Assembly (NCBI RefSeq): GCF_000526675.1
Contig: NZ_JAGN01000003.1
Coordinates: forward strand, 1 to 64,000
DNA: 64,000 nucleotides
Source: Atopobacter phocae ATCC BAA-285
GTDB lineage: Bacteria > Bacillota > Bacilli > Lactobacillales > Aerococcaceae
Direction: 5' to 3'
Position numbers and translations under genes: made by a program. Within the stretch, counting starts at the first letter, position 1, and the number at the start of each line of letters is the position of its first letter. The notes below the pieces were generated by a model. It made no database searches. It saw nothing but the letters and a program-made list of their open reading frames with translations, and was not told where the DNA came from. Positions 24,316 through 42,926 of this stretch are shown in pieces.

Positions 24316-26367
24316 TTATCTTTTCACTTGTAATTCTGTTACATCTGCAAATGTCATAATATAATTCGCTAATTGTCCTAATAAAGTTAAACGATTATTT
24401 CTGGTTGTTTCATCGTCAACCATAATCATATTATCATTGAAGAATTGCTCAATTTTCGGTGCAATTGTTTTTAAATCGTCATAACTAATTGAGCGTTGTT
24501 TTAACGTTTCTTTCCAATTCAATACGTGATGATACAACTCTTTTTCACTTGCTGTTTCGAAATGAGCTTCATCTATTTGTCCATCCGTTGTTTGATCTTT
24601 CTGCATTCGTAACACACGACTCAAGTTTTCAATCGTTGCTTTATAACTTTCGTCTTGCGAAGCTATCATTAATTGGTTCGTCACGTCTTGAATGCGATTG
24701 AAATCAAATAATTGATTGCCTAGTGCAGCTTTGACAATATCATCACGGAAGCCTTCACGTAGCAACCCTTGCGCTAAACGATCTTTCATAAATTGAATCA
24801 CAAGTGCAATGGTTGATTGTTCGTCTCTCTTTATTCCATCGTATAAGCCAATGAACTCATTTAAAACTTGTTCCCAATTTAATGTCCAATTTTCATTTTT
24901 AATGATTTGAATAATCCCAATTGCTTGACGTCTTAAACCAAATGGATCATTTGAACTAGTTGGAATTAAGCCTACTTTAAAGAATGCTAAAAGATGATCA
25001 ATTTTATCACTTAGTGCAAGAACACTAGCTATTGCGGAACTTGGTAAAAGACTACCTGCCCCATCTGGTAAATATTGTTCGCGAACTGCAGTAGCAACTT
25101 CATCTGATTCACCCATTAATTTCGCATAAATGCCACCAATAATTCCTTGTAATTCAGGTAATTCTTGAACGGTTTGAGTGGTTAAATCAAATTTATAAAT
25201 AGCACTTGCACGTTTTAATTGTGCTAATTCGTCCGCTGATAAACCGACTAATTGGCCCAAATGTTGACCAATTGTAATAACGCGTTGTTCTTTTTCAGCC
25301 ATTGTTCCCACTTTTTGATGAACATTTAAGTGAGCCAAACGTTGGTTAAATGTATCGATTGTTTGTTTTTGATCTTCTTCGTAGAAGAACAAAGCATCCT
25401 CTAATCGAGCGACTAAAACTTTTTCATTTCCTTTTTTCACGTTTTCGATATGCTTGTTATCACCATTTCGTACAGTTACAAAATGGGGCAATAATTTGCC
25501 GGCTGGTGTATGCACATCAAAGTAACGTTGATGACCTTTCATTGTTGTAATCAAAATTTCATCCGGGATTGCTAAGTATTTCGGATCAAAGTCACCCATT
25601 AAAATACTTGGGTATTCCACAATTGATGCTACTTCTTCTAGTAATTCATCATCTTTTGCAATCACAATTTGCTGAGTTGCTTCTAAATCACGCATTTGTT
25701 CTTTAATCATTTCACGACGTTGATCTAAATCAACAATGACATATTGTTCTTTCAATTGATCAACATATGAAACGGCACTATTTACTTGGAATGATTCACC
25801 TAAGAAACGGTGTCCTCGTGATTGATTGCTTCCAGTCAAATTAAAAATTTGTACGGGAACAATTTCTTCATTTAATAAAGAAACAATCCAATGAACGGGA
25901 CGAATGTATTGATAGTCATAATCACTCCAACGCATTGATACAGGGAAATTTAATGATTCAAATACTGTACCAATGGATTGTAAAACATCTTGAGCTGGTT
26001 TTCCTTCAATGACTTGTTTTAAGAAAACATACTCGACGTCTTTTACTTGATCAATATATAAATCTGCTAAATCCGCACCTTTACCTCGAGAAAAACCGAT
26101 GGCCGCTTTTGTCCACTGACCTGCTTCATCCACAGCATTTTTCTTTGCTGGGCCTCGAGAGATTTGTTCTAATGTTGTTTGACGATCTGCTAAACCTGAT
26201 ACTAAAACAGCTAAGCGTCTAGGCGTACTATAAACTTTGATCGCTTCAAACGATAAACGTTCATCATTTAAAAATTGCGCTACTCCTGCTTTTAAATCAT
26301 TCATTGCGGGGATAATTGTGCGCGCTGGCATTTCTTCCAAACCTAATTCAATTAAAAAATTATTCAT
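24316..26367 (-). CDS. glyS: Glycine--tRNA ligase beta subunit
   Basis: 683 residues, full length for the beta chain of the alpha2-beta2 bacterial enzyme. It starts NNFLIELGLEEMPAR, which is diagnostic, and includes SMRWSDYDYQYIRPVHWI and GDFDPKYLAIPDEIL, plus DPFGLRRQAIGII in the HD-like/body domain. A C-terminal DALR-type anticodon-binding region follows. It lies 28 bp after glyQ. The T-box at 27570-27731 controls the pair. Confidence 0.97.
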   Translation of the reverse strand: MNNFLIELGLEEMPARTIIPAMNDLKAGVAQFLNDERLSFEAIKVYSTPRRLAVLVSGLADRQTTLEQISRGPAKKNAVDEAGQWTKAAIGFSRGKGADLADLYIDQVKDVEYVFLKQVIEGKPAQDVLQSIGTVFESLNFPVSMRWSDYDYQYIRPVHWIVSLLNEEIVPVQIFNLTGSNQSRGHRFLGESFQVNSAVSYVDQLKEQYVIVDLDQRREMIKEQMRDLEATQQIVIAKDDELLEEVASIVEYPSILMGDFDPKYLAIPDEILITTMKGHQRYFDVHTPAGKLLPHFVTVRNGDNKHIENVKKGNEKVLVARLEDALFFYEEDQKQTIDTFNQRLAHLNVHQKVGTMAEKEQRVITIGQHLGQLVGLSADELAQLKRASAIYKFDLTTQTVQELPELQGIIGGIYAKLMGESDEVATAVREQYLPDGAGSLLPSSAIASVLALSDKIDHLLAFFKVGLIPTSSNDPFGLRRQAIGIIQIIKNENWTLNWEQVLNEFIGLYDGIKRDEQSTIALVIQFMKDRLAQGLLREGFRDDIVKAALGNQLFDFNRIQDVTNQLMIASQDESYKATIENLSRVLRMQKDQTTDGQIDEAHFETASEKELYHHVLNWKETLKQRSISYDDLKTIAPKIEQFFNDNMIMVDDETTRNNRLTLLGQLANYIMTFADVTELQVKR

Positions 26368-26395: not shown

Positions 26396-27292
26396 TTACT
26401 CGTTGTGGCCCATTGAGTGAATCAACGGGAAGCCTAATTCTTTACGCTCTTCAACGAAAGCAACTGCGATTGCCTTAGCCATTTGACGGATTCGTTTTAA
26501 GTAGGCTGGACGATCGGTCGCTGAAACTACTCCGCGTGCGTCTAATAAATTGAATGTATGGCTACATTTTAAAACATAATCGTATGCTGGATGCACAGCC
26601 TTCGCTTCAATTAAACGATGCGCTTCTTCTTCGTACTCATCAAACCATTTTAATAATTTAGTTTCATCACTTAGTTCAAAGGCGTAGACAGAATGTTCGC
26701 GTTCTGGTTGTTTAAAGATATCACCATATTTCACGCCATCTGTCCAAATAATATCATAGACATTATCTACTCCTTGGATATAAGATGCTAAACGTTCTAA
26801 TCCGTATGTTAATTCACTTGTTACTGAATCAACGGTCAAACCTCCGACTTGTTGGAAATAAGTGAATTGAGTCACTTCCATTCCATCTAGCCAAACTTCC
26901 CAGCCTAAACCAGCACATCCTAAAGAAGGATTTTCCCAGTTATCTTCAACAAAGCGAATATCGTGCGCTAAAGGATCAATGCCTAATTCTACTAAACTTT
27001 GTAAATACAACTCTTGGATTTCTAGTGGAGATGGTTTGATAACCACTTGAAATTGATGATGTTGAAACAAGCGGTTAGGATTTTCACCATATCGTCCATC
27101 TGCCGGACGACGACTTGGTTCAACATAACATGCACGCCATGGTTCTGGACCGATTGCTCTTAAGAAAGTATACGGGCTCATTGTTCCCGCTCCTTTTTCT
27201 ACATCATAACTTTGTAATTGTAAACATCCTTGTTTTCCCCAAAATTGTTGTAAACGTTGGATGATTTCTTGAAATGTTAATACTTGTTTCAT
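26396..27292 (-). CDS. glyQ: Glycine--tRNA ligase alpha subunit
   Basis: 298 residues from the ATG at 27292, preceded by GAGGGG; a longer in-frame start at 27352 would lie inside the upstream small gene. It is the catalytic subunit, class [39 protein letters not shown] and [17 protein letters not shown] are hallmark stretches. The length matches the family (about 295-305). It follows a 79-residue unknown ORF by 19 bp. Confidence 0.97.
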
Positions 27293-27311: not shown

Positions 27312-27551
27312 TTATAACGCTTTAATTGCTGGTAAAAAACTATACTGAACACCTGGAATTGGTTTAATCACCACTTCTTTAATAGAGTCAAGTGGTGTCT
27401 CAAATGAATAGACCGTTTGTTTCGCATTTGTTTCAAATGATTCTACCGGCTCATTATCGTCAAATACTTCCACCGAAACGGGACTCATACTTAAAATTTG
27501 AATTTGATTCGTCGTGAATTTTTCTTTTAAAATAATCACTTCTTTTAACAT
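27312..27551 (-). CDS. Small unknown protein between the glycine T-box and glyQ
   Basis: 79 residues from an ATG at 27551, with a strong TAAGGAGG seven bases upstream; a longer frame from 27599 would run into the T-box terminator. It begins [20 protein letters not shown] and has alternating hydrophobic/polar stretches ([36 protein letters not shown]) that suggest a small beta-rich fold. There is no signal peptide, membrane helix or Cys pair. I do not recognise a family. Its place as first gene after the T-box means it should respond to uncharged tRNA-Gly together with glyQ and glyS. It looks real because of the ribosome site and the tight packing (19 bp to glyQ). Confidence 0.75.
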
Positions 27552-27569
27552 ATTTATCCTCCTTAACCT

Positions 27570-27731
27570 AAAAAAACCCCATGCCAAAAAAATTGGCACA
27601 GGGACGATTACATCGCGGTTCCACCCTATTTCTGCTATTGCAGCACTTCAGTAGTTATTTAATTGTATAAACAATTTGCCATTTAAATTTGTTGGCTTTC
27701 ACCCTTCCAACTCGCTGCTTCTAATCCCCTT
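27570..27731 (-). promoter_or_regulatory. T-box leader of the glyQS operon
   Basis: Read leftward, the T-box sequence GGGTGGAACCGCG is at 27626-27614. It is followed by a terminator hairpin (CCCTGTGCCAA with TTGGCATGGGG, then a T run) at 27604-27570, which the T-box can pair with to form the antiterminator. The upstream GCGAGTTGG..GGGTGAAAGCCAAC stretch matches the apical part of Stem I. A GGC triplet at 27680-27678 is a candidate glycine specifier, but I could not draw the specifier loop with certainty. The gene order makes glycine the expected signal. Confidence 0.88.
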
Positions 27732-27732
27732 C

Positions 27733-27761
27733 ATTTTAATTCACATGTGCCAGAAATGCAA
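27733..27761 (-). promoter_or_regulatory. Candidate promoter for the glyQS T-box transcript
   Basis: Leftward -35 TTGCAT at 27761-27756, 17-bp spacer, -10 TAAAAT at 27738-27733, just past the recO stop. It would start transcription close to the first Stem I bases, which is tight, so an upstream promoter is also possible. Confidence 0.45.
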
Positions 27762-27772
27762 TTAAAATTAGA

Positions 27773-28561
27773 CTATTTAAACCATTTAAGCATATCTTCT
27801 AAGTAGTCCCAACTCTTCAAATGAATTCCAGCATAATCTTTATACAGATTATGCAATAATTGCTTAGCTGCTTGAAACGTTTCATCCTTTATATTCATTT
27901 GACCAAGTTTATTCGGCGTTATCAACCGCATCCGTTGGCACAATGCCACAGCTTGCGGCGACGTGGATAATAGACCTGGAACACTCTTATGCGTTTGTCT
28001 TAAATGGTTATATGCTTCAACTAAAATTACTCCATAAGGTTGATACGAAAAATAACAAGGCTCATGGAAAGCGTTCTTTCCCGTAATTTGACACGTCATC
28101 CAATCTGGATCGACACCAAAAAACGGTAAGACGTGCGTCTCAAGTAGGATTTGCAAAGCATTAGGACTTAATCCTTTTTCCAAATGATTCATCACTTGAA
28201 CTAAGACGTCAAATAATTCACGTTGCACTTCACCATCTTCAAAAGCTGCATCAATAAGTGCCATAAAGTAAATGGCATATGCATAATTGATAGGATCATT
28301 TTGCAACTTTAATCGGCTATTTTGAACCGATGCATCTTTCAAAAAGGATAAACCACTCGGATTAATGCGCCCAAGAAATTGGGAGTGTACAACTGGATTT
28401 AAACTACTTTTCAGTGGATGATTCGGCTGTTTCGAAAGGCCACGAATGAAAAACATCCGTTTGCCATATTCTGAAGTAAATATTTTAACGAGCGCATCGT
28501 GTTCGCGGTACTGTCTTTTAGTTAATACAATTCCTTCAAACGGGGTAAAATATTCACTCAC
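27773..28561 (-). CDS. recO: DNA repair protein RecO
   Basis: 262 residues. Mediator that loads RecA on SSB-coated DNA in the RecFOR pathway. The N-terminal OB fold has GIVLTKRQYREHDALVKIFTSEYG, and the C-terminal helical domain includes CQITGKNAFHEPCYFSY in the usual zinc-finger-like position, though the full four-Cys set is not present. The era-recO-glyQS order is typical of Firmicutes. It is 11 bp after era. Confidence 0.93.
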   Translation of the reverse strand: MSEYFTPFEGIVLTKRQYREHDALVKIFTSEYGKRMFFIRGLSKQPNHPLKSSLNPVVHSQFLGRINPSGLSFLKDASVQNSRLKLQNDPINYAYAIYFMALIDAAFEDGEVQRELFDVLVQVMNHLEKGLSPNALQILLETHVLPFFGVDPDWMTCQITGKNAFHEPCYFSYQPYGVILVEAYNHLRQTHKSVPGLLSTSPQAVALCQRMRLITPNKLGQMNIKDETFQAAKQLLHNLYKDYAGIHLKSWDYLEDMLKWFK

Positions 28562-42463: not shown

Positions 42464-42655
42464 TAAAAAAAGACCCCTAGCAAATAACTTGCTAAGGACG
42501 AATTAATCGTGGTGCCACCTTAATTTAGTTGTAATATACAACTCTTTTTCCGATAACGGTTGGTCCGATGTGTGTTTATTAAGTGTTTTCTTGTTTTTTA
42601 ATTGGAATAGTTCGCACCTACCACTATCTCTCTTTACCAAATTAATAAACAATAC
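42464..42655 (-). promoter_or_regulatory. T-box leader of hisS-aspS, histidine specifier
   Basis: Leftward, the T-box sequence AAGGTGGCACCACG is at 42521-42508. It precedes a terminator (CCTTAGCAA with TTGCTAGGGG, then a T run) at 42500-42464. Stem I closes with GTTTATTAA (42650-42642) against TTAATAAAC (42582-42574). The triplet immediately before the 3' strand of that helix is CAC (42585-42583), a His codon, in the expected specifier place. The GGTAAAGAGAGATAG..GGTGCGAACTA stretch is the apical part of Stem I. The histidine assignment follows from this layout and from hisS being first. Confidence 0.88.
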
Positions 42656-42926
42656 TTGTCTTAAATCACATATTTTTTAATATTCTCTTAAACGTAATTA
42701 ACTAAATTGTACAGAAATTTTATTTAAAAATCAAATGATTGTTCTGAAATATTAGTATTTTCATTTGATTATAAATGTGCGCATATAAATTGTCAACATG
42801 CTTTATTCAATGCTTTTTTAAACTTCTAAACGCTCTTTAATTCCTAACTAAGCATGATATAACTTTCTCATATTTTACGATGATTATTACAATAAGTTTA
42901 CAATTAGATAACGAAGATTAGAAAAA
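42656..42926. other. Intergenic region between hisS leader and amidase
   Basis: About 270 AT-rich bases, part of a 577-bp gap. They should carry the promoter of the hisS-aspS leader, but I could not settle on a box pair. I see no small ORF with a ribosome site and no RNA gene. Confidence 0.5.

Follow-up and report, generated by a model that had tools for sequence, protein, structure and literature searches.

A family of proteins of about 80 residues with a predicted beta-sandwich fold, encoded between a glycine T-box leader and glyQS in two families of Lactobacillales

The minus-strand reading frame at 27312-27551 of the window, a stretch of 64,000 nucleotides from Atopobacter phocae ATCC BAA-285, is a genuine gene of an undescribed family. 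It follows a T-box that has a glycine specifier and a terminator, and precedes the glyQS genes of glycyl-tRNA synthetase. We regard the reality of this 79-residue gene, together with its T-box control, as practically certain. Its product may be an effector coupled to glycine starvation, with GlyQS or a protein of glycine metabolism as its partner, a reading to which, taken as a whole, we assign a probability of roughly 0.4. The general arrangement, in which an uncharacterised gene is led by a synthetase T-box, is already known. What is undescribed, as far as databases and the open-licence literature show, is this family of proteins of about 80 residues, with its fold and its invariable place next to glyQ in two bacterial families; no description of this small gene was found in open-licence papers.

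The gene and its glycine T-box leader

On the minus strand, the gene order is recO, T-box leader, 79-residue gene, glyQ and glyS (Table 1). The gene runs from an ATG at 27551 to a stop codon at 27314-27312, with an AAGGAGG at 27564-27558, six bases ahead of the ATG, and purine-rich sites also precede its homologues at the loci inspected. The stop is separated by 19 nt from the ATG of glyQ (27292). An earlier note on this DNA had described a small gene of 79 residues with a strong ribosome site between the T-box terminator and glyQ, and the coordinates agree with that description. When the 285-nt gap was shuffled 2000 times with its dinucleotides preserved, an open reading frame of at least 79 aa appeared 4 times; these shuffles, together with the dN/dS values given below, rule out a chance reading frame as the origin of the gene.

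Table 1. Features of the glyQS locus in the window, in order of transcription.
Feature	Coordinates	Strand	Basis or remark
T-box leader, overlaps recO 3' end	27597..27789	-	Rfam RF00230, 49.3 bits, E 8.4e-10, under gathering score of 93
GGC, putative glycine specifier	27678..27680	-	54 nt before core
T-box core GGGTGGAACCGCG, antiterminator side	27614..27626	-	sequence match, aligned with relatives
Intrinsic terminator of T-box	27577..27603	-	terminator at 27603-27577
Ribosome-binding site AAGGAGG	27558..27564	-	sequence
79-aa gene (undescribed family, predicted beta-sandwich), first cistron after T-box terminator	27312..27551	-	homologues, selection, predicted fold
glyQ, glycyl-tRNA synthetase alpha subunit	26396..27292	-	Pfam PF02091, 469 bits
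glyS, glycyl-tRNA synthetase beta subunit	24316..26367	-	Pfam PF02092, 643 bits

In T-box control, uncharged tRNA pairs with the specifier and stabilises the antiterminator. The leader in the window has both the core GGGTGGAACCGCG (27626-27614), which occurs as a single copy in the genome, and a competing terminator (27603-27577). Its putative specifier GGC, judged by sequence, corresponds to the amino acid of the regulated operon, and in the genomes that carry the small gene each of the 32 leaders has a GGC 46-58 nt ahead of its core. The gathering score of RF00230 (93) was reached by none of the four Enterococcus loci scanned, and the window leader scores 49.3 bits. The MFE fold of the window leader is no better than those of shuffled sequences (z -1.4), and the T-box assignment therefore rests on the motif, the specifier and the Rfam score. 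From its position as first gene of the T-box-glyQS unit and from the glycine specifier, the 79-residue gene would be expected to rise with uncharged tRNA-Gly, as the earlier note had also proposed.

Distribution, conservation and loss of the family

The family is present in 33 species genomes from two families of Lactobacillales. The window's own family (f1) accounts for 9 carriers among 76 genomes, and Enterococcaceae for 24 among 105. A single-sequence search with the window protein gave a match in 12 of 198 relatives. A profile search of the order matched 31 of 395 genomes, two of these matches being weak and not of the family; in Enterococcaceae, a profile search found 24 full matches and one weak match (G265) among 105 genomes. 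A class-wide sample of 398 genomes returned four matches, three already known and one weak and partial with a stop (G697). The counts leave out the weak matches, which score 17.8-20.8 bits: G265 and G697, both partial, and G013 and G023, where partial matches fall inside reading frames of 485 and 1465 aa. Scanning named genomes by pattern gave 18 Enterococcus loci, including E. gallinarum, E. casseliflavus, E. dispar, E. canis and E. thailandicus; these overlap the genomes found by profile and are no extra evidence. A single-protein search of a genome contigs collection with a family protein gave no match. The match in G417, which is counted as a carrier, begins at residue 14. At the E. innesii locus (L058, near 3001) the match also begins at residue 14, and there the small gene seems, from its sequence, to have a frameshift close to codon 13.

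In all 33 carriers the small gene is followed directly by glyQ in the same orientation. Homologues always upstream of glyQ are what the earlier note had advised looking for, and its refuting condition, a lack of homologues with a conserved reading frame, fails on these 33 genomes. In 32 of the 33 the small gene is preceded by a T-box core, and all 32 leaders have the Stem I distal motif as well as GGC. The one exception is E. rivorum (G387), where the contig reaches no further than 191 nt beyond the start of the small gene. Positions 19-96 of the same locus (L045) match the terminal part of a group II intron (RF00029, 46.5 bits), apparently inserted between the T-box and the small gene. The family searches found neither a second copy nor a fusion of the small gene, with one match in each matching genome. 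The spacer between small gene and glyQ measures 11-64 nt in the nine f1 members (29 nt in G063); among Enterococcaceae carriers, the seven that were measured span 13-443 nt. Since it reaches 443 nt in some Enterococcus, translational coupling to glyQ is not general.

The codons of the gene are under purifying selection. Among the 24 pairs listed, dN/dS is 0.05-0.35 in 23, the exception being one pair at 0.71 that rests on seven changes; the ratio was computed for equal-length pairs above 60% nucleotide identity, and dS was saturated in six further pairs. In the family alignment, M1, F12, V60, F72, P74 and A78 are invariant columns, and T41, Y48 and P66 are nearly so. These conserved positions are structural rather than catalytic in character. 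The alignment contains no conserved charged or catalytic-type residues, which makes an enzyme unlikely. The protein is acidic, with a pI of 4.1-5.1 over the 16 members listed, and this argues against a role in binding RNA. Inspected by eye, the family alignment shows neither a signal peptide nor a membrane segment, and from its sequence the small protein would appear to be soluble and cytosolic.

The gene is absent from most of the genomes in both families, 67 in f1 and 81 in Enterococcaceae, and glyQ from none (present in 76 of 76 f1 and 105 of 105 Enterococcaceae genomes). Because it is so often missing beside glyQ, GlyQS does not need the small protein. The T-box core was found in 63 of the 67 f1 non-carriers, at 78-208 nt from glyQ in 62 of them and at 313 nt in G049, and none of these 63 core-to-glyQ gaps holds a reading frame of the family. 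In Enterococcaceae, 79 of the 81 non-carriers have the core, 73-884 nt before glyQ, with the longer gaps mostly in genera g38, g51, g39, g23 and g78. A search of the longer gaps found no family remnant at E 0.1 apart from two short matches judged spurious. Spacers of up to 884 nt between T-box and glyQ, some consisting of visibly repeated blocks, occur at L141, L203, L154 and other Enterococcus loci. Three loci of genus g15 (L103, L123 and L080) and L125 show no T-box core upstream of glyQ by the pattern used; there the leader has possibly been lost or changed.

Two genomes, G036 (L105) and G056 (L096), share genus g10 with five carriers. In both, a strong ribosome site survives in the gap before glyQ, as does a stretch, GFYPAI or EFYPVI, that resembles the end of the small gene. 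The G056 stretch was found by tblastn at E 0.003-0.01 in a tiny search, and that of G036, which gave no hit, was read by eye. These two species probably hold a relic of a lost small gene. A GlyQ tree was built for 97 genomes, of which 33 have the gene and 64 lack it, and the presence of the gene changes on it at least 14 times; the tree was made by a quick method with 42 of 86 inner branches unsupported, and two loci lacking a readable glyQ were left out. From these changes and the probable relics it follows that the small gene is dispensable and has been repeatedly lost. A tree of 28 small proteins groups them largely by genus and family. Its exceptions are G063, an f1 genome that falls with Enterococcaceae (support 97/95), and G010, placed beside the clade of the window and not with its own genus (92/81). 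This pattern is consistent with a gene inherited mainly vertically, lost many times and transferred perhaps once. A recent mobile gene is rejected, as there is no plasmid or phage match and the tree is mostly vertical, G063 excepted.

Predicted fold and relation to known families

AlphaFold2 predicts a seven-strand beta-sandwich for the window protein, with a pLDDT of 93.4 and a pTM of 0.82, and for the member from E. canintestini it predicts the identical strand order (pLDDT 92.7, pTM 0.81). The beta-rich fold that the earlier note had thought likely is thus what the model returns. The note had also recognised no family, and searches of Pfam, NCBIfam, PHROGs and PDB agree with it, as none of them gave a credible match by sequence to the window protein or, for Pfam and PHROGs, to 20 members. 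The best values were E 0.003 in Pfam, to an Ig-like nucleoporin domain in one of the 20 members, E 0.0016 in PHROGs, to a 'head closure' profile in two of the 20, E 0.073 in NCBIfam, searched with the window protein, and 0.01 for a PDB profile.

Structural searches with the predicted model were similar in outcome. Foldseek against PDB gave a best E of 0.034, to a CBM51 (TM 0.51), the best BFVD match was the viral VP9 at E 6e-3 (TM 0.56), and VIA-align gave Z up to 6.8 (Ena2A, supernatant protein factor) with an rmsd of 2.6 over 72-75 residues. These are values usual for any small beta-sandwich, and as modelled no family stands out. What the predicted protein shares with GOLD, CBM51/CBM-like, Ena pilin and sensory rhodopsin transducer domains is the overall seven-strand sandwich, at Z of at most 6.8. 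It differs from them in that identity is below 20% among the matches listed and the Z values are typical of unrelated sandwiches; no shared function is implied. Nor is the small protein a piece of the synthetase itself, since hhalign found no sequence kinship with GlyQ or GlyS (probability 0.3 and 0.2%), which rules that origin out.

Candidate roles of the protein

The reading we prefer takes the small protein to be a starvation-coupled effector. When charged Gly-tRNA is short, uncharged tRNA-Gly would pair with the GGC specifier, as is known of T-boxes, the antiterminator would be stabilised, and the small protein would be produced together with GlyQ and GlyS. The product would be a soluble beta-sandwich, not an enzyme, with another protein as its binding partner. 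That it acts by binding a protein is, we think, probable. Because the small gene never leaves glyQ, GlyQS, made from the same mRNA and perhaps tuned or stabilised, is the first candidate partner, and a glycine-pathway protein would be the second; that the bound protein is GlyQS itself we consider doubtful. Modulation of the enzyme, one of the roles offered in the earlier note, would fit the strict synteny; against it stand the lack of sequence kinship with GlyQ or GlyS, the frequent absence of the small gene beside the same enzyme, and the unrelated genes that other lineages have in the slot. In 198 column-residue tests, no GlyQ column was tied to the presence of the gene, and the comparison of the best 12 with independent pairs, of which two were supported, had no power.

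The composition of the protein would suit such a role. Glycine makes up 2.2% of residues over 28 members, which are related to one another, against 5.8% in window reading frames of at least 150 aa (17,787 residues); the window gene has one glycine codon in 79, and GlyQ has 7.0% glycine. By glycine content, the window reading frame in its longest form (95 aa) is fifth lowest of 60, four other window reading frames being lower and some others equally low. A low glycine content is suggestive of a protein that could still be translated when Gly-tRNA is short. In its fullest form, the proposal is of a new tRNA-Gly-responsive effector family in which a glycine-poor sandwich binds GlyQS or another glycine-pathway protein and alters its activity, and this we hold to be rather unlikely. 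If it were true, a T-box riboswitch would govern a synthetase plus a dedicated small partner, a second control layer on glycine charging in enterococci and their relatives. The protein would then join the small number of proteins that modulate a bacterial synthetase, built in under the riboswitch of that synthetase.

The model for the logic of such an effector is anti-TRAP (AT, rtpA/yczA) of Bacillus subtilis, described in PMC11255114 as a small protein that acts by binding a protein and whose production depends on a T-box sensing uncharged tRNA. The likeness, drawn by analogy, lies in small size, control by a T-box and, as proposed for the window protein, action through binding. In contrast to anti-TRAP, which has a Trp T-box, binds zinc and has TRAP as its partner, the window protein is under a glycine T-box in a synthetase operon and, having no Cys and no His, is not of the zinc-binding type. 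TrpM (SCO2038) of Streptomyces coelicolor, as described in PMC5036795, is a looser parallel, a small reading frame in an amino-acid operon whose product adjusts that pathway and interacts with a protein partner. It differs in being another protein, from a Trp biosynthetic operon. We claim no homology of the small protein to either.

The strongest rival, nearly as probable as the effector reading, is that the gene is a passenger of the T-box slot, with a product that borrows the glycine-starvation signal and acts on something unrelated to GlyQS, in metabolism or stress. Other genes do occupy the slot, and the signal is thus open to genes that do nothing for GlyQS. Of 13 genomes in the streptococcus-like genus g24, four (L230, L232, L236 and L241) have in this slot a GFA-family gene of 123 aa (PF04828, 90 bits), a family with no match in the window protein and 19 relatives. 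In a fifth g24 genome (G121, L243), a metallopeptidase-like reading frame of 265 aa lies between T-box core and glyQ, with an HEFAHW motif and a weak likeness to Peptidase_M9 collagenase (23.5 bits, cut-off 26). Table 2 of Wels 2008 (PMC2494555) lists spr1331 of Streptococcus pneumoniae, under a glycine T-box, as 'Gly-tRNA ligase related hypothetical', and EF2480 as 'Gly related hypothetical'. As listed there, spr1331 resembles the window gene in being an uncharacterised gene under a glycine T-box, and differs from it in that the streptococcus-like slot holds the 123-aa GFA-family protein; from its description we infer that spr1331 is this slot gene. The passenger reading also gains from the repeated changes in presence on the GlyQ tree and from the probable relics in two species. 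A pure passenger, however, would be expected elsewhere at times, and the family adjoins glyQ in every one of 33 genomes from two families. Even for a passenger, the T-box-glyQ junction would be a place where genes have settled more than once to exploit the signal of glycine shortage, and the family itself is conserved, previously unannotated and open to testing in culturable enterococci.

Less probable by far is a domesticated phage or virus beta-sandwich, of the capsid or tail accessory type, brought under tRNA-Gly control. The viral VP9 and 'head closure' matches point in this direction, but tblastn with one Enterococcus member found no homologue in 50,697 phage records, the window protein has none in 72,556 plasmid records, the fold is very common, and inheritance is mostly vertical. 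More improbable again is a cis-acting leader reading frame of which only the translation would matter, through coupling to glyQ or shielding of the mRNA. The short distance to glyQ in the window and the other f1 members would suit it, yet the residues are under purifying selection, the predicted fold is confident and conserved, and the spacers in Enterococcaceae can be long, and we reject a purely cis-acting leader on these grounds. The slimmest chance falls to a helper of glycine uptake or wall cross-bridge supply, raised in the earlier note, which has only the glycine T-box in its favour and against it both the lack of a signal peptide or membrane segment in the alignment, as judged by eye, and the enterococcal carriers, the best known ones, since enterococci are not known to use glycine cross-bridges.

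Elsewhere in the window, at 42491-42671 on the minus strand, lies a second T-box of 106 bits, an ordinary synthetase T-box whose downstream reading frames we take to be hisS and aspS.
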